Assembly (NCBI RefSeq): GCF_026672425.1
Contig: NZ_JAPPRC010000006.1
Location: 372,001 to 436,000 of the forward strand
Source: Pannonibacter sp. SL95
GTDB taxonomy: Bacteria > Pseudomonadota > Alphaproteobacteria > Rhizobiales > Stappiaceae
Direction: 5' to 3'
DNA: 64,000 nt
Shown here: positions 1,286-48,985 of the stretch, piece by piece
Numbering within the stretch: position 1 is the stretch's first letter
How the letters are laid out: each line of letters starts with the position of its first letter
Made by a program: the position numbers and the translations under genes
The notes under the pieces: model-generated
Database searches by the model: none
What the model was told of the DNA's origin: nothing
Seen by the model: the letters and a program-made list of their open reading frames with translations, nothing else

Positions 1286-4222
1286 ATGGCAGGCAACCCG
1301 GTAGTTCTTCGGGCCATGCTTGGCTTTGTTTTTGGGTCGGCGAGCATGCTGCTCCGCCGTGCCGCCGTGTTTCTTGTGCTCGTGCTTGCGCTCCTCGTTG
1401 CCGGGCGTGCCCATGCGCTTGAGCCGATTCCGGTGCCGCTTGACGTCGAAGCGCTGGAACTGACCAAGGCCATCGACATGTATCCGGGCGCCGGTCCGCG
1501 CCTGCAGGTGTCGACCGCTCCCGGGCAGGACGGCATCGTCCGCCGCATCGAGGTGGTCTCGCGCGACGGCATCAACAGCGACTGGGCAGTCTTCGCCCTG
1601 ACCAACACCTCGGACGAGCAGGTCGACCGCCTCATCGTCGCCCCGTTCTATCAGCTCGTCGGCTCGCGCATGTTCTGGCCGGATCTCGGCAAGTCGCGTG
1701 TTGCCTCGATCACCCCCAGCCAGGGCATCGCACCGGAACGGCAGAAGAGCCTTGAGGCGGACGTGTTCCTGGTCACCCTCGACCCTGGCGCCATCGTGAC
1801 CTTTGTCGTCGAATTGACGACACCGGAACTGCCGCAGATCCGCCTGTGGGAACCCGATGCCTACAAGGAAACGGTCAACGCCTACACGCTCTACCGCGGC
1901 ATTATTCTGGGCATCTCCGGCCTGCTGGCGCTGTTCCTGACCATTCTCTTCGTGGTCAAGGGAACCGTGATGTTCCCCGCAACCGCGGCGCTCGCCTGGG
2001 CGGTTCTGGCCTATCTGTGCATCGACTTCGGCTTCTGGAGCCGGGTGTTCAACCTGACCCAGGGCGAGGACCAGCTCTACCGCGCCTCGGCGGAAGTGAT
2101 GCTGGCAGCCAGCCTGATCATCTTCCTCTACGCCTATCTGAACCTGAACCGCTGGCACATCCGCTATTCGCATCTGGCGCTTGGCACGCTGACGCTGCTG
2201 CTTGGCCTGCTGGGTGTTGCCGTCTGGGATCCCTCGATCGCCGCCGGCATTGCCCGCCTGGCGCTCGGCATGATCGGCATCATCGGCTTTGCCACGGTGC
2301 TTGTCCTGGCGCTGCAGGGCTATGACCGCGCGATCATGCTGATACCGACCTGGTTCCTGCTGATTATCTGGCTTGTCGGTTCCGGCATGACGGTCACCGG
2401 CATCATCGCCAACGACATCGTCCAGCCGGCTCTTGGCGGTGGTCTGGTGCTGGTCGTGCTTCTGATCGGCTTCACGGTGATGCAGCATGCCTTTGCCGGC
2501 GGCGCCATCGTGCAAGGTCTGATTTCCGACGTGGAGCGGCGGGCGCTTGCGCTCACAGGTGCCGGCGACATCATCTGGGACTGGGATATCGACCGCGACC
2601 GGATCTTCACCGGCCATGAAGTCGAGGATCTGCTCGGCCTGCGCCATGGCACCCTCGATGGTCCCGCGCGCGACTGGCTTGACGTCCTGCACCCGCAGGA
2701 CCGAGACCGCTTCCGCGCCACGCTGGACGCGGTCATCGACCAGCGCCGCGGCAAGGTGCAGCAGGATTTCCGTCTGCGTTCCGAAGATGGCCATTTCCGC
2801 TGGTTCCGCCTGCGCGCCCGTCCGATCCTGGGATCGGATGCGGAAGTCATCCGCTGCGTCGGCACGCTGCTCGACATCACCGAGCAGAAAACTGCCGAAG
2901 AACGCCTGCTGCATGACGCCGTGCATGACAACCTGACCGGCCTCGCCAACCGCGAGCTGTTCATGGACCGGCTCAATGCGGCGCTGGCCCGCGCGCGCGC
3001 CGATGGCGCGATCAAGCCTTCGGTGCTGATCCTCAATCTCGACCGGTTCAAGCAGATCAACGACGGCATTGGCCTGTCGGCAGGCGATTCCATCCTGCTG
3101 ACCATTGCCCGCCGGCTCGACCGCCTGATCCAGCCGCAGGATTCACTCGCCCGCCTCAACGGCGACCAGTACGGCCTGATCCTCCTGTCGGAGCAGGAAG
3201 CCGACCGCATTGCCCAGGTGGCGGACGCCTTGCGCAAGGCCGTGCGCGCGCCGATCACCTATGGCGACCGCGAGGTCTTCCTCACCTGTTCCATCGGTTT
3301 TGCGTTGCATGACGGCGGCAAACAGACCTCGGAAGAACTGGTGACCGATGCCGAGATCGCGCTGAACCACGCCAAGCGCCTTGGCGGTGACCGTCAGGAA
3401 GTGTTCCGTCCGATCCTGCGTCCGCTTGGACGCAACGTGATCGACCTGGAAGGCGACCTGCGCAAGGCAATAAAGGACGGCGAGCTCGGCGTCTATTTCC
3501 AGCCCATCGTGCGCCTGTCGGACCAGTCGGTGGCCGGCTTCGAGGTCCTGTCGCGCTGGAAGCATCCCAAGCGCGGCCAGATCGCGCCCAGCGAGTTTAT
3601 CCCGATTGCCGAGCAGTCCGGCCTGATCAACGAGCTGGGGCTCTATGTCCTGACCAAGGGCGCAAAGCAACTGGCCGAGTGGCAGGACAAGATCCGCACA
3701 CCTGTGCCGCTGTTTGTCTCGGTCAACATCTCGTCCCGCCAGCTGCTGCGCCATGACCTCATCAACGAGGTGAAGGCGATCCTGTCACGCAGCCGCATCG
3801 CGCCGGGCACCCTGAAGCTGGAACTGACCGAATCCATCGTCATGGCCAATCCGGAGTATTCGGCCAAGGTGCTGGAGCGCCTGCGGGCGCTCGGGGCCGG
3901 CCTGTCGCTGGACGACTTCGGCACCGGCTATTCGTCGCTGAGCTATCTCCAGCGCTTCCCGTTCGATACGATCAAGATCGACCAGTCCTTCGTGCGCCCC
4001 AATGGCCGTGCGGCCCGCCCGGTCATCCTGCGCTCCATCGTTGCCCTTGGCCACGACCTCGGCATGGCCGTGGTGGCGGAGGGCGCTGAGGGCGAGTCCG
4101 ATGCGCTGGAACTGCTGCAGCTCGGCTGCGAATACGCGCAGGGTTATTTCTTCGGCGAAGCAATGACCGCCGAGGAAGCAACCGCCTACATCCGCAAGGC
4201 CTATGACGCCTTGCCGGCGTGA
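1286..4222 (+). CDS. Membrane PAS-GGDEF-EAL c-di-GMP signalling protein
   Basis: This is a 978-residue sensor. A signal peptide-like segment (best if translation starts at Met21, base 1346) is followed by a periplasmic domain to about residue 200, a block of about seven hydrophobic helices (about 205-410), a PAS domain (about 415-540), a GGDEF domain (about 550-700) and an EAL domain (about 715-970). The GGDEF signature is degenerate (NGDQY, starting at N625), so cyclase activity is unlikely. The EAL domain keeps FEVLSRW (Glu753), LELTES, DDFGTGYSS and KIDQSF, so c-di-GMP phosphodiesterase activity is plausible, with the usual Ala replaced by Val. The periplasmic-plus-7TM layout resembles 7TMR-DISM receptors. 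The ligand is unknown. Confidence 0.9.
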   Translation: MAGNPVVLRAMLGFVFGSASMLLRRAAVFLVLVLALLVAGRAHALEPIPVPLDVEALELTKAIDMYPGAGPRLQVSTAPGQDGIVRRIEVVSRDGINSDWAVFALTNTSDEQVDRLIVAPFYQLVGSRMFWPDLGKSRVASITPSQGIAPERQKSLEADVFLVTLDPGAIVTFVVELTTPELPQIRLWEPDAYKETVNAYTLYRGIILGISGLLALFLTILFVVKGTVMFPATAALAWAVLAYLCIDFGFWSRVFNLTQGEDQLYRASAEVMLAASLIIFLYAYLNLNRWHIRYSHLALGTLTLLLGLLGVAVWDPSIAAGIARLALGMIGIIGFATVLVLALQGYDRAIMLIPTWFLLIIWLVGSGMTVTGIIANDIVQPALGGGLVLVVLLIGFTVMQHAFAGGAIVQGLISDVERRALALTGAGDIIWDWDIDRDRIFTGHEVEDLLGLRHGTLDGPARDWLDVLHPQDRDRFRATLDAVIDQRRGKVQQDFRLRSEDGHFRWFRLRARPILGSDAEVIRCVGTLLDITEQKTAEERLLHDAVHDNLTGLANRELFMDRLNAALARARADGAIKPSVLILNLDRFKQINDGIGLSAGDSILLTIARRLDRLIQPQDSLARLNGDQYGLILLSEQEADRIAQVADALRKAVRAPITYGDREVFLTCSIGFALHDGGKQTSEELVTDAEIALNHAKRLGGDRQEVFRPILRPLGRNVIDLEGDLRKAIKDGELGVYFQPIVRLSDQSVAGFEVLSRWKHPKRGQIAPSEFIPIAEQSGLINELGLYVLTKGAKQLAEWQDKIRTPVPLFVSVNISSRQLLRHDLINEVKAILSRSRIAPGTLKLELTESIVMANPEYSAKVLERLRALGAGLSLDDFGTGYSSLSYLQRFPFDTIKIDQSFVRPNGRAARPVILRSIVALGHDLGMAVVAEGAEGESDALELLQLGCEYAQGYFFGEAMTAEEATAYIRKAYDALPA

Positions 4223-5414: not shown

Positions 5415-5893
5415 GCGCCGGTCTCCGCCGCGCCTCCACGGCCCCGCTGGTACGGCTTCATGCCGAGCCGGGCGAGTTCATCGGCGCGCTCGTTTTCCGG
5501 ATGGCCGGCGTGGCCCTTGACCCAGTGCCAGGAAATCTGGTGCCGGCGCTGCGCCTCATCCAGCGCCTGCCACAGCTCGGCGTTCTTCACCGGCTTCTTG
5601 TCCGCTGTGCGCCAGTTGTTGCGCTTCCAGTTGAACAGCCACTTGGTGATGCCATCGCGCACATAGACGCTGTCGGTGTAGAGATCGACAGTACAGGCGC
5701 GTTTCAAGGCATTCAGCGCCTCGATCGCGGCCATCAGCTCCATGCGGTTGTTGGTGGTGTCGGCGGCCCCGCCATTCAGCTCGCGCTCATGCGGGCCGAA
5801 GCGCAGGATCGCGCCCCATCCACCCGGCCCGGGATTCCCCGAACAGGCACCGTCCGTATAGATCACCACGCGCTCGCCATCGCTCTCGCTCAT
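5411..5893 (-). CDS. rnhA: Ribonuclease HI
   Basis: The 160-residue enzyme is close to the usual 150-160 of bacterial RNase HI. It degrades RNA in RNA-DNA hybrids using two metal ions. The catalytic carboxylates are visible in order: Asp in [12 protein letters not shown], Glu in [12 protein letters not shown], Asp in LYTDSVYV and Asp in [12 protein letters not shown]. The basic [16 protein letters not shown] handle region is present. I chose the ATG at 5893, which begins [15 protein letters not shown]; it overlaps the thrB stop as ATGA. The longer open frame extending to 6163 is a shadow of thrB. Confidence 0.97.
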
Positions 5894-8673: not shown

Positions 8674-8814
8674 AATCCGCGCTGCGCCGCCGTTTTCCGG
8701 CAAAGAAACCATGCACGCGGCGCGTATTGACAATCGCAGGGCGGAATCAGACAATCCGCGCGCCGGTTCGGGTCGTGACGAGTCGGTGAGGGGCAGGTTT
8801 TGCCCTTGAAAAAG

Positions 8815-9060
8815 CGACAGCGGGAGAGGCTGGACGAGGGGGCATTGCCAGGCATGGCAGGGCTCGCGGGCGCCAGCGCCGAAGGAGCAACCGCCCCGGA
8901 AACTCTCAGGCAAAAGGACCGCTTCGCTTCGACGCTCTGGAAAGCAGTGCGCAGGCTTATGCCCGCGTGCTCACCGAAGGAGTAACCGGTGCTGCGCAGG
9001 AACTAGACCTGCGCGATTGCCGGGAAATCTCTCAGGTACTCGGACAGAGGGGGTGGTGGA
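8815..9060 (+). ncRNA. Tandem glycine riboswitch (gcvT element)
   Basis: Two consecutive glycine aptamers precede gcvT. Aptamer 1 runs from CGGGAGAGGCT (8821) through GCCGAAGGAGCAACCGCC (8877-8894) to GGAAACTCTCAGGCAAAAGG (8899-8918). Aptamer 2 runs from the linker TCTGGAAAGCAGTG (about 8936) through CACCGAAGGAGTAACCGG (8972-8989) to GGGAAATCTCTCAGGTACTC (9022-9041) and GGACAGAGGGGG. These are the hallmark conserved strings of the class. It is established that glycine binding turns on gcv expression, so that excess glycine is oxidised. I cannot place the expression platform exactly; it must lie between about 9041 and the gcvT start at 9108. Confidence 0.95.
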
Positions 9061-10689: not shown

Positions 10690-11175
10690 ATGGCTGGACA
10701 CATCTACAAGGCTGGCGTCTTCTGGCGCATGGAAGGTGACTTCAAGCCGGGCAAGTACTCGCGCGGTCACCTCTGGCGCTTTGACGGCGGCGTGGATGTG
10801 CCGGCCTCGTCCTCACCCCATGTCGTGCCGCTGCCCTATTCGGTGACAGCGGCGGTCGACCCGGAGGAGGCGCTCATCGCGGCCCTGTCCTCGTGTCACA
10901 TGCTGACCTTCCTCGACCTTGCCCGTCGCGGAGGCCTCATGATCGATGCCTACGAGGATCAGGCCGAAGGGCTGATGGAGCGGATCGCTCCCGGCCGCAT
11001 GGCCATCACCAAGGTGACCCTGCGCCCGTTGCTCACCCTTCGCGCGGCCGAGCTGCCGGATCCCACCTGGCTGACCGATTTGCACGACAAGGCGCATGAG
11101 GTCTGCTTCATCGCCAATTCGGTGAAGTGCGAAATCAGCGTGGCGCCCGAACCCGTGCGCCTCGTGGCTCCCTGA
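10690..11175 (+). CDS. OsmC/Ohr-family peroxiredoxin-like protein
   Basis: The 161-residue protein has the OsmC fold signature: a first cysteine in ALIAALSSCHMLTFLDLARR (about residue 75) and a second in HEVCFIANSVK (about residue 138), the pair that reduces organic hydroperoxides in characterised family members. It starts four bases after gcvH and is followed 55 bases later by gcvPA, so it is transcribed with the glycine cleavage genes. What it does there is unclear; protection of the lipoyl or PLP machinery from peroxides is only a guess. The family call is strong, the substrate unknown. Confidence 0.9.
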   Translation: MAGHIYKAGVFWRMEGDFKPGKYSRGHLWRFDGGVDVPASSSPHVVPLPYSVTAAVDPEEALIAALSSCHMLTFLDLARRGGLMIDAYEDQAEGLMERIAPGRMAITKVTLRPLLTLRAAELPDPTWLTDLHDKAHEVCFIANSVKCEISVAPEPVRLVAP

Positions 11176-11230: not shown

Positions 11231-12577
11231 ATGCGTTATCTGCCGCTTTCCGACACCGACCGCGCCGATATGCTCGCGCGCGTCGGCGTGTCATCCATCG
11301 ATGAGCTGTTCGCCGATATCCCGGAAGCCGCCCGTCTCAAGGGCCTCGTTGATCTGCCGACCCGCAAGTCGGAGATCGAGGTCGAACGTCACCTCAACCG
11401 CATGGCAGCCAAGAACGTGGCGGCCGGCTCGGTGCCCTTCTTCGTGGGTGCCGGCGCCTACCGCCACCACGTGCCGGCAACCGTTGATCACCTGATCCAG
11501 CGCTCGGAGTTCCTGACCTCCTACACGCCGTATCAGCCGGAAATCACGCAGGGCACGCTGCAGTACCTGTTCGAGTTCCAGACCCAGGTTGCCCGCCTCA
11601 CCGGCATGGAAGTCGCCAACGCCTCCATGTATGACGGCTCGACCGGCACCGGCGAAGCCGTGCTGATGGCGCACCGCGTCACCCGCCGCAACAAGGCGGT
11701 GATCTCCGGCGGCCTGCATCCGCAGTACCGCGCCGTGGTCGAAGGCCTGTCGAACCTCTCCGGCGACAAGGTCGTGTCCCTGCCGGCCGACCCGATGGGC
11801 ACCGAGGACATTCTCGCCGCCATCGATGGCGAGACTTCCTGCGTCGTCGTGCAGTCGCCGTCCTTCTACGGCCAGATCATCGACCTGAAGCCGATTGCCG
11901 AAAAGGCGCAGGCCCATGGCGCGCTGCTCATCGCCGTCTTCACCGAAGTCGTCTCGCTCGGCCTGATCGAGTCGCCGGGTGCGCAGGGTGCGGACATCGT
12001 CGTCGGCGAAGGCCAGTCCATCGGCAACGGCCTCAACTTCGGCGGCCCCTACGTCGGCCTCTTCGCCACCAAGCAGAAGTACATGCGGCAGATGCCGGGG
12101 CGTCTGTGCGGCGAGACCGTGGACGCGGAAGGCAAGCGCGGCTTCGTGCTCACCCTCTCCACCCGCGAGCAGCACATCCGCCGCGAGAAGGCGACGTCGA
12201 ACATCTGCACCAACTCCGGCCTCTGCGCGCTGGCCTTCACGATCCACATGACGCTGCTCGGCGAAGCCGGCCTGACGCGTCTGGCCCGGATCAACCACGC
12301 CAATGCGGTGAAGCTAAAGAAGCAGCTGTCGGCAATTGCCGGCGTCGAAGTCCTCAACAAGGCCTATTTCAACGAGTTCACCGTCAGGCTGCCGAAGCCG
12401 GCGCATGACGTCGTTGAGGCACTTGCGGCCCGTGGCATCATCGCCGGCCTGCCGGTGTCGCGCCTGGAGCCGGGCAAGGCTGACCTTGCCAACCTTCTCG
12501 TGGTCGCCTCGACCGAAATCAACACCGACGAAGACCGTGCTGCCTTTGCAGCCGCCCTCAAGGAGGTGCTGGCATGA
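11231..12577 (+). CDS. gcvPA: Glycine dehydrogenase (decarboxylating) subunit 1, GcvPA
   Basis: This is the 448-residue alpha half of a split P-protein. Together with GcvPB it decarboxylates glycine with PLP and loads the aminomethyl group on GcvH. Family features include [20 protein letters not shown] at the start, [49 protein letters not shown] and [20 protein letters not shown]. The PLP lysine is in the other subunit. In other bacteria gcvPB follows directly, but here the stop (12575-12577) overlaps the start of a foreign-looking ORF by ATGA and gcvPB begins 322 bases later. Confidence 0.96.
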
Positions 12578-12579
12578 GC
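12570..12579 (+). repeat. 10-bp direct repeat, left copy (gcvPA/insert junction)
   Basis: TGGCATGAGC spans the gcvPA stop and the start codon of the inserted ORF. An identical copy lies at 12896-12905, exactly 326 bases downstream, spanning the insert stop and the gcvPB start. The two copies bracket the AT-rich segment. They could be a target duplication or the microhomology used for insertion. Confidence 0.9.
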
Positions 12580-12903
12580 TTTCATTGGATCTACTGCTAC
12601 GAGAAATGCTCAGAAGCAATGCGATTGATGCTTTCGCCGCGTTATGATCATCGAGAAGCTATCGCAATTGCCTATAAGGATCAGCTTATTCATCTTCGGG
12701 ATGAAAATATTCCTGAGGAGTGCAAGGCTGAATACCTTGAGTTTAAAAAATTGTTCGAAAAACACAGGAAAATAGATCAGTATACTGGGGTGAATTTTTA
12801 TAACGTAAAGAAGAGCTCTCTTGAGCGAATTACAAGTGCATACGCGGATTTCTTCTTAGGTTTCTTGCGAGTTTATCACGAGAAGAGGGGGGCTTTGGCA
12901 TGA
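12574..12903 (+). CDS. AT-rich ORF of unknown function inserted between gcvPA and gcvPB
   Basis: The 109-residue product begins [20 protein letters not shown] and ends [11 protein letters not shown] do not recognise it. It has no signal peptide or membrane helix, and is rich in Lys, Glu, Tyr and Phe, suggesting a small soluble helical protein. Its base composition is very different from its neighbours: 117 of 290 bases in 12601-12890 are G or C (about 40%). Codon use is also different, with many AAA, TTT and GAT codons. Both ends overlap the flanking genes as ATGA, so the ORF is translationally embedded in the gcv operon. A 10-bp direct repeat flanks it. I infer recent horizontal insertion. 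Translation is likely, function unknown. Confidence 0.75.
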
Positions 12904-12905
12904 GC
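12896..12905 (+). repeat. 10-bp direct repeat, right copy (insert/gcvPB junction)
   Basis: TGGCATGAGC, identical to 12570-12579. It contains both the TGA of the inserted ORF and the ATG of gcvPB. Removing one copy with the 316 intervening bases would restore a gcvPA-gcvPB junction with an ATGA overlap, which is probably the ancestral state. Confidence 0.9.
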
Positions 12906-14492
12906 ATGAACACCCAGGGCCGTCCGACGGCCGCCGGCGATGCCGGTTCTGCATTCCGTCCCAAGACCTTCACCGGCAACCGCGCGCTCGACATGGAAGA
13001 GCCGCTGCTGTTCGAGATCGGCCGCCTGGATGTGACCGGCGTCGATCTGGACGAGCCGGAAGCCTTCGAGGCCGAGCTTGGCGCCCATGCGCGCAAGTCG
13101 GGCATCGGCCTGCCGGGCCTGTCCGAGCCGGAGACGATGCGTCACTACGTGCGCCTGTCGCGCAACAACTACGCCATCGACGCCGGCCTCTATCCGCTCG
13201 GCTCCTGCACCATGAAGCACAACCCGCGTCTCAACGAGAAGATGGCGCGCGTGCCGGGCTTCGGTGACATCCACCCGCTGCAGCCGCTGTCCACCGTCAA
13301 GGGCGCCGTCGAGCTGATCTCGGAGCTGGGCGACTGGCTGATGGAACTGACCGGCACCTCCGCCGTCGCCATGAGCCCGAAGGCCGGCGCGCATGGCGAA
13401 CAGTGCGGCATGATGGCGATCAAGGCCGCGCATATCGCCGCCGGCCGTGATCCGAAGATCGTGCTGGTTCCCGAAAGCGCCCATGGCACCAACCCGGCCA
13501 CGGCCGCGCTGCTCGGCTTCAAGGTCGTCACCATCGACGCCAAGGAAGACGGCACCGTGGACCTGACCTCGGTGAAGAAGGCCATTGCCGACAACGCCGG
13601 CAACATCGCCGCGATCATGCTGACCAACCCGAACACCTGCGGGCTGTTCGAGCGCGACATCATGGAAATCGCCGCCGCGATCCACGAAGCCAACGCCTAT
13701 TTCTACTGCGACGGCGCCAACTTCAACGCCATCGTCGGCAAGGCCCGTCCGGGTGATCTCGGCATCGACGCGATGCACATCAACCTCCACAAGACCTTCT
13801 CCACCCCGCATGGCGGCGGTGGCCCGGGCTCCGGTCCGGTGGTCCTGTCGGACCGTCTCGCCCCGTTCGCCCCGCTGCCCTTCGTGCGCAAGTCGGCCTC
13901 GGGTCTGGAAATGGTCGAGACGGAAGCCGGTCTCAAGGACGGCGAGAAGCCCTTTGGCCGCATGACCGCCTTCCACGGCCAGATGGGCATGTTCGTGCGC
14001 GCGCTGGCCTACATGCTGAGCCACGGCTCGGACGGCCTGCGCCAGGCGTCGGAAGACGCGGTGCTGAACGCGAACTATGTCCGCGTCGGCCTGCAGGACC
14101 TGATGACCCTGCCGTTCGGCGTGCGCCCCTGCATGCACGAAGTGCTGTTCGACGACAGCTTCCTGAAGGACACCGGCGTCACCACGCTCGACTTCGCCAA
14201 GGCGATGATCGACGAGGGCTATCACCCGATGACCATGTACTTCCCGCTGGTGGTGCATGGCGCGATGCTGATCGAGCCGACCGAGTCCGAAAGCCGGGCG
14301 GCCCTCGACCTGTTCGTCGCCACGCTGCGTGACCTCGTCATGTCGGCCAAGCGCGGCGAGACGGAGCGCTTCACCGGCGCGCCGTACCTTGCCCCGCGCC
14401 GCCGCCTCGACGAGACCCGCGCCGCGCGCGCGCCGATCCTGACCTATCAGGACCCGGTCCCGGCCATGGTCACCCCGGCCGCCGCCGAGTAA
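12900..14492 (+). CDS. gcvPB: Glycine dehydrogenase (decarboxylating) subunit 2, GcvPB
   Basis: The 530-residue beta half of the split P-protein carries the PLP lysine in MHINLHKTFSTPHGGGGPGSG. Other family segments are YPLGSCTMKHNPRLNE, GDIHPLQPLS, KAGAHGEQCGMMAIKAAH, ESAHGTNPATAA and MTNPNTCGLFE-like MLTNPNTCGLFERDI. It forms a heterotetramer with GcvPA in studied systems. The ATG overlaps the stop of the AT-rich inserted ORF. It is the last gene of the operon and is followed by a strong terminator. L-protein (lpd) is not in the window. Confidence 0.97.
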   Translation: MSMNTQGRPTAAGDAGSAFRPKTFTGNRALDMEEPLLFEIGRLDVTGVDLDEPEAFEAELGAHARKSGIGLPGLSEPETMRHYVRLSRNNYAIDAGLYPLGSCTMKHNPRLNEKMARVPGFGDIHPLQPLSTVKGAVELISELGDWLMELTGTSAVAMSPKAGAHGEQCGMMAIKAAHIAAGRDPKIVLVPESAHGTNPATAALLGFKVVTIDAKEDGTVDLTSVKKAIADNAGNIAAIMLTNPNTCGLFERDIMEIAAAIHEANAYFYCDGANFNAIVGKARPGDLGIDAMHINLHKTFSTPHGGGGPGSGPVVLSDRLAPFAPLPFVRKSASGLEMVETEAGLKDGEKPFGRMTAFHGQMGMFVRALAYMLSHGSDGLRQASEDAVLNANYVRVGLQDLMTLPFGVRPCMHEVLFDDSFLKDTGVTTLDFAKAMIDEGYHPMTMYFPLVVHGAMLIEPTESESRAALDLFVATLRDLVMSAKRGETERFTGAPYLAPRRRLDETRAARAPILTYQDPVPAMVTPAAAE

Positions 14493-48830: not shown

Positions 48831-48890
48831 CCTGTTCTGTCTGAACGTGTTCTGTGTGCCCGTGTGCTGTTTGCACGTGTACTGTTTGCA
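48831..48890. repeat. 15-bp tandem repeat, four copies, in the thiM leader
   Basis: Copies start at 48831 (CCTGTTCTGTCTGAA), 48846 (CGTGTTCTGTGTGCC), 48861 (CGTGTGCTGTTTGCA) and 48876 (CGTGTACTGTTTGCA). The period is exact and divergence grows away from the aptamer. They lie between the TPP aptamer and thiM and, being multiples of three, keep a 62-codon frame open on the minus strand (48713-48901). Confidence 0.9.
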
Positions 48891-48901
48891 AGGTGCTGCA
48901 A

Positions 48902-48985
48902 ACGACTTCCTCCGCCGGCATGACCCGGTTCAGGTTCAAAGGGTTCATCTCAGCCCCCGGTTGTGGGGCGCCCCTGTCGCAAGCA
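48902..48985 (-). ncRNA. TPP riboswitch (THI element)
   Basis: On the minus strand the element reads ACAGGGGCGCCCCACAACCG (from about 48977) then GGGGGCTGAGATGAACC (P3 with the invariant CUGAGA), and GAACCTGAACCGGGTCATGC followed by CGGCGGAGGAAG, the conserved second half. TPP binding represses thiamine genes. About 185 bases separate it from thiM, longer than usual; the space holds the 15-bp repeat. Confidence 0.95.

Follow-up and report, generated by a model that had tools for sequence, protein, structure and literature searches.

Horizontally acquired ORFan genes inserted into operons are a general phenomenon, and the locus described here resembles them in that a small AT-rich ORF of foreign character lies within an existing operon and overlaps its neighbours. 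It departs from the general case in that one junction, located between two subunits of a single enzyme (gcvPA and gcvPB), is reused by different groups of ORFs. A further likeness is found to the orphan immunity genes of T6SS, CDI and polymorphic toxin systems, which are depicted in the portions of the literature consulted as small, patchily distributed and diverged single ORFs without a cognate toxin, features shared by the inserts, and one insert group (that of G112) has a homologue in a toxin-immunity array. The difference is that the gcv operon shows no toxin near the insert and that an immunity function is putative here. Integron gene cassettes are likewise single-ORF units of a few hundred bases. 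Unlike these, the insert is situated inside an operon and no inverted repeats of at least 10 nt that could represent attC are present at 12500-12980, a search that shorter or gapped repeats could escape. Finally, the DUF2513 (phrog_585) family includes an ORF that occupies this junction in G166, a distant genome of the order, whereas the present ORF does not match the DUF2513 Pfam model. In the parts seen of open-licence PMC texts on orphan immunity, operon insertion, gcvPA/gcvPB and DUF2513, the junction is not reported as an insertion site.

The window, i.e. the whole 64-kb stretch of DNA that was analysed, harbors the glycine decarboxylase genes together with what we take, from their sequences, to be gcvT, gcvH and an OsmC-like gene. 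The OsmC-like ORF (161 aa, 10690-11175) is located between gcvH and gcvPA and is matched in GC to its surroundings. Coordinates are collected in Table 1.

Table 1. Features of the gcv locus and of the inserted unit (positions refer to the window).
Feature	Position	Strand	Evidence or remark
Two glycine riboswitch aptamers, 5' of the gcv genes	8810..9049	+	Rfam RF00504, 55.5 and 42.1 bits
gcvPA, glycine decarboxylase subunit 1	11231..12577	+	Pfam GDC-P, 4.8e-121
AGGAGG, Shine-Dalgarno-like, in the gcvPA tail	12561..12566	+	Found by eye; putative function
10-bp repeat TGGCATGAGC, left copy, containing gcvPA stop and ORF start (ATGA)	12570..12579	+	
Inserted 326-bp unit	12574..12899	+	GC 0.411; not present in four congeners
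Inserted ORF (109 aa), product predicted as four helices, no family match	12574..12903	+	
10-bp repeat TGGCATGAGC, right copy, containing ORF stop and gcvPB start (ATGA)	12896..12905	+	
gcvPB, glycine decarboxylase subunit 2	12900..14492	+	Pfam GcvP2_C, 2.7e-18

The reading frames of gcvPA and gcvPB are both intact around the insert. The start of the inserted ORF overlaps the gcvPA stop (12577) and its stop overlaps the gcvPB start (12900), and the AGGAGG motif, located ahead of gcvPB where the site is empty, is now found ahead of the inserted ORF. The sequence-only reading of this DNA had described a 326-bp unit with a 109-codon ORF of about 40% GC in DNA of about 65%, bounded by an exact 10-bp repeat with ATGA overlaps on both sides; the overlaps and the repeat are confirmed in the sequence, and the measured GC content of the unit compares with a mean of 0.647 (sd 0.040) for 326-bp windows. 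As few as 24 of the 63674 such windows are equally low or lower, and of the six AT-rich islands in this 64-kb stretch the one at 12521-12960 goes deepest. The two copies of TGGCATGAGC lie 326 bp apart, are absent elsewhere in the window and constitute the sole direct repeat of at least 10 nt at 12500-12980. Neither promoter-like nor terminator-like sites were found at 12400-13000.

Taken alone, the 10-bp repeat is weak evidence and proves little, because the 10-mer is common in the host genome, where it occurs at 25 places compared with 3 for the reversed control. Its two occurrences in 64 kb are more than the 0.31 expected by chance, and 3 of 100 shuffles reach two. The repeat counts as a duplication because the congeners show the empty site. 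Four of them are devoid of the insert, with a junction that reads AAGGAGGTGCTGGCATGAGCATGAA or a close form thereof; in the nearest congener, G003, the empty junction on the gene strand is AAGGAGGTGCTGGCATGAGCATGAACACC. G003 shares 98.2% identity with the present genome along 2936 bp and shows 0 differences from it in either of the 150-bp windows beside the junction, and for G001 the identity is 97.6%, with 2 and 4 differences in the two 150-bp windows. Given these near-identical empty sites, the unit is a recent arrival that brought no foreign flanking tract with it. The import of the whole locus together with foreign flanks was rejected for the present genome by the flank identity to the congeners. 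The earlier proposals that a foreign ORF had entered an ATGA junction while preserving its overlaps, and that removal of one unit would restore a direct gcvPA-gcvPB ATGA junction, are thus borne out, the former by the empty sites and the low GC content, the latter by its match to the relatives' empty sites.

In the family, 87 genomes were surveyed. gcvPB was found in 75 of them (the other 12 giving no match at 1e-150), and the junction was readable in 74 (in G010 from coordinates), the partial G057 being left out. Comparison of related strains, suggested by the sequence-only reading, shows that the insert is not universal, as 67 of the 74 junctions carry none. The seven occupied junctions have gaps of 325 bp (present genome), 328 bp (G109, Roseibium sediminis KCTC 52373), 322 bp (G011), 340 bp (G019 and G038, each), 235 bp (G112) and 485 bp (G043). 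Each of the seven ORFs has the orientation of the operon and a start that overlaps the gcvPA stop, and in six the ORF stop overlaps the gcvPB start. All-against-all comparison yields about five ORF groups, namely the present ORF with that of G109 (42% identity over 106 aa, 5e-27; 45% in a MAFFT alignment), G019 with G038 (85%), and G011, G112 and G043 singly. G011 shows a marginal similarity to G109 (phmmer 0.0015 in a 12-sequence set) and may be a remote member of the present group, which would give four groups instead of five; its protein retrieves itself from the 87 family genomes and then nothing better than E 0.008. In G018, counted as carrying no insert, the ATGA is changed to ATGG, which abolishes the stop of gcvPA, and this gene continues to a TGA a few codons further on.

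As a control, thrB-rnhA, another ATGA junction of the window, was surveyed with a joined ThrB-RnhA query, which matched 86 of the 87 genomes. Inserts were found in 0 of the 63 genomes with both parts among the matches listed (the other 23 being uncounted), the largest gap between the two matches being 29 bp. Fisher's test of 7/74 against 0/63 gives p=0.015, or 0.031 if G019 and G038 represent one event (six events), values that are optimistic since the genomes are related rather than independent; the contrast involves one control junction. The gcvPA-gcvPB junction is a recurrent insertion site, at which accessory genes seem to settle by preference.

Beyond the family, 397 genomes of the order were compared, and further long gaps were taken by eye among the matches listed, without a count. 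The G213 junction contains a 107-aa ORF (gap GC 0.50 versus 0.69 in the flanks), which is weakly related to the present protein (27% over 48 aa, pairwise E 2e-4) and clearly related to an ORF in G074 (31%, 4e-9). At the G220 junction a 114-aa ORF starts 11 nt past the gcvPA stop (gap GC 0.49 versus 0.72), G369 harbors a GC-matched ORF, and the junction ORF of G166 is of phage type, belonging to DUF2513 (3.4e-20) and phrog_585 (6.3e-22). A profile built from the present, G109 and G213 proteins matched three of the 397 genomes (the present one, G213 and G074), and the G074 member is not located at gcvP. With G074 added, the profile found the present genome and one poor match with stops among 249 genomes of the phylum, and G213 alone among 28 genomes of its family. 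Being made from junction members, the profiles overstate the proportion of members that lie there. Apparently, one superfamily (present genome, G109, G213) occupies the junction in three genomes of different genera. In another genus, G302 and G321 possess junction spacers of 154 and 133 bp with an ATGA-started short frame and a common C-terminal stretch, and coordinates hint at similar spacers in further members of that genus; these spacers possibly represent an old, vertically kept insert.

The repeated part of the gcvPA tail is TGGCATGAGC (10 bp) in the present genome, GGAGGTGCTGGCATGA (16 bp) in G109 and GAGGTGCTG (9 bp) in G043, the latter two containing the GAGG or GGAGG located ahead of gcvPB where the site is empty. 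In G011, G019, G038 and G112 no clear repeat extends past the start context, and another purine-rich stretch is found ahead of gcvPB. A dedicated mobile cassette that moves between ATGA stop/start junctions by a recombination specificity of its own (the sequence-only reading had envisaged a cassette targeting ATGA junctions) would agree with the clean 326-bp unit, the exact repeat and the apparent single superfamily at the junction in different genera. We nevertheless consider it improbable, as the repeats vary in both length and position or are not evident, inverted repeats of at least 10 nt are missing, the inserts are of different groups, and thrB-rnhA is unused in 63 genomes. From that proposal the repeated use of gcvPA-gcvPB by different ORFs stands, while enzymatic recognition of ATGA is unsupported, duplication lengths being different and the control junction empty. 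As to other inserts bounded by TGGCATGAGC or lying at ATGA overlaps, which that reading had proposed to look for, the next closest pair among the 25 places of the 10-mer in the host genome is 1.7 kb apart, which also speaks against the cassette. At least two of the other places read as LA-stop/MS-start junctions (17 of the 25 contexts were viewed).

Nor does an insertion sequence or transposon describe the unit, as the ORF that fills it has no Pfam match (no recognisable recombinase), and a target duplication of fixed length is not seen in the three inserts with repeats, which need not be one element. The variable duplication length and the lack of inverted repeats speak against one transposase or integrase, and the anatomy of the insert fits neither integron cassette nor IS. 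Instead, we infer that DNA would have entered by non-specific break-and-join, duplicating 9-16 bp in three cases, and that selection would have retained only those events which left the gcvPA end and the gcvPB ribosome site and start functional. Selection after non-specific joining would thus produce the tidy overlaps without any ATGA-recognising cassette. The inserted ORF would be translated by ribosomes coming from gcvPA. Capture of a foreign gene into an operon can be read at this locus at the base-pair level, from the empty site through filled sites with different cargo to the exact repeats.

The protein itself has no known match, as the earlier reading had stated. Searches of Pfam (E 1), NCBIfam, PHROGs and PADLOC gave none, and the same holds for tblastn against phages and plasmids. 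Of its relatives, the G109 protein found no credible match in plasmids and phages (one weak phage hit, E 0.8, lies under a terminase annotation), nor did G074 in plasmids and phages or G213 in plasmids, all by tblastn; the family profile consensus found none in plasmids. In viral contigs no match was obtained for the present protein, the three-row alignment A2, G074 or G112, and the scan of genome contigs returned Roseibium sediminis (the G109 insert) alone. The structure predicted from the alignment of two sequences comprises four helices (pLDDT 90, pTM 0.82), with mean pLDDT values of 90.0, 87.5, 86.8, 52.5 and 37.5 for the five models, a good and not unanimous prediction. At E 0.001, Foldseek with this model retrieved no match from PDB or BFVD, and no PDB sequence scored better than E 0.03 in a profile search.

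A neutral insertion with an accidental or decaying open frame would be in keeping with the rarity of the insert and its recent arrival in this lineage. It is nonetheless hardly credible in view of the 42-45% identity to the G109 protein, the confident predicted fold and a dN of 0.495 below a dS of 1.18 (near saturation, first 64 codons). For G019 and G038, dN is 0.114 and dS 0.915, so their ORF is maintained as a protein by purifying selection.

The position between two subunits, with overlapping genes, and the presence of three members of one superfamily at this place might indicate a partner or modulator of the GcvP complex, the second possibility raised by the sequence-only reading. This is very improbable: the 67 empty family junctions include those of the four congeners, other ORF groups occupy the same place, and most members came to light through inspection of this very junction, the G074 member lying elsewhere. 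The distribution of the protein speaks against a GcvP subunit, and a role as GcvP partner is unlikely.

Rather, the product is most likely an accessory protein of the orphan immunity or defence type, whose role in the cell does not involve GcvP and which would be made at no extra cost from a metabolic operon. The G112 insert itself has no Pfam or NCBIfam match; plasmids of Pararoseomonas, Paraburkholderia phymatum and Deinococcus carry homologues of it. On P. phymatum pBPHY02 the homologue (41.5% identity, 3995-4216, annotated from 4001) is embedded in an array of filamentous haemagglutinin (fragments), Imm8 (1.3e-45), DUF637, PT-VENN, DUF2489 and small immunity-like ORFs. It lies directly 3' of a short ORF whose stop overlaps its possible GTG start, the annotated ATG being 3 nt past that stop. 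This short ORF may be read as an orphan toxin tail. Next to the homologues of Pararoseomonas and Deinococcus the annotation shows no recognisable toxin. The insert of G043 resembles phrog_1244 (1.4e-8), its protein giving no tblastn match in phage records, and the G019 protein found no match in plasmids. BREX BrxF was discarded as a candidate for the G019 ORF (16.9 bits versus a cut-off of 50). In G074 the relative of the present protein (5443-5838, minus strand) is on a 6.5-kb contig, where no toxin was recognised; scanning of three neighbouring ORFs revealed an MBOAT acyltransferase (6.7e-29) and a Trypco2-like ORF (8.3e-5; 23.2 bits, just under the cut-off of 24.2), the third giving no identification. 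Trypco2-like domains occur in conflict systems.

The cargo at the junction thus belongs among the accessory genes that accompany toxins and phages, as the present ORF would by analogy; the latter is most likely accessory, and orphan immunity or defence is plausible for it. We accordingly regard as probable, with some reserve, that the ORF is a recently acquired accessory small gene, captured at a recurrent site, the overlapping gcvPA-gcvPB junction of a riboswitch-headed glycine-cleavage operon. A sharper form of this explanation, in which the ORF, as an orphan immunity gene expressed from the metabolic operon, would act against a polymorphic or contact-delivered toxin made by competitors, is our leading single guess and is tentative. 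The array around the G112-insert homologue and its place right behind the short ORF point that way, and the small size, AT-richness, rarity and divergence of the inserts fit. Against it, the link is positional and concerns one group, the short ORF in question has no Pfam or NCBIfam match, the relative in G074 has no recognised toxin nearby, and the databases searched provide no direct link of the present protein to toxins, phages or defence.

If the cargo does consist of immunity or defence genes, conserved metabolic junctions would be cheap places to search that are missed by methods based on defence-island neighbourhoods. It is a bolder and rather doubtful extension that overlapping metabolic-operon junctions in general would serve as landing sites for recombinase-free, translationally coupled single-gene defence or immunity ORFs, gcvPA-gcvPB being a strong case and the present ORF representing an undescribed four-helix superfamily that would be glycine-switched together with the glycine-cleavage system. 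Sharing the riboswitch-headed operon, the inserted ORF may in any case come under glycine control. A TPP riboswitch (Rfam RF00059, 73.2 bits) is also present in the window, at 48890-48985 on the minus strand.
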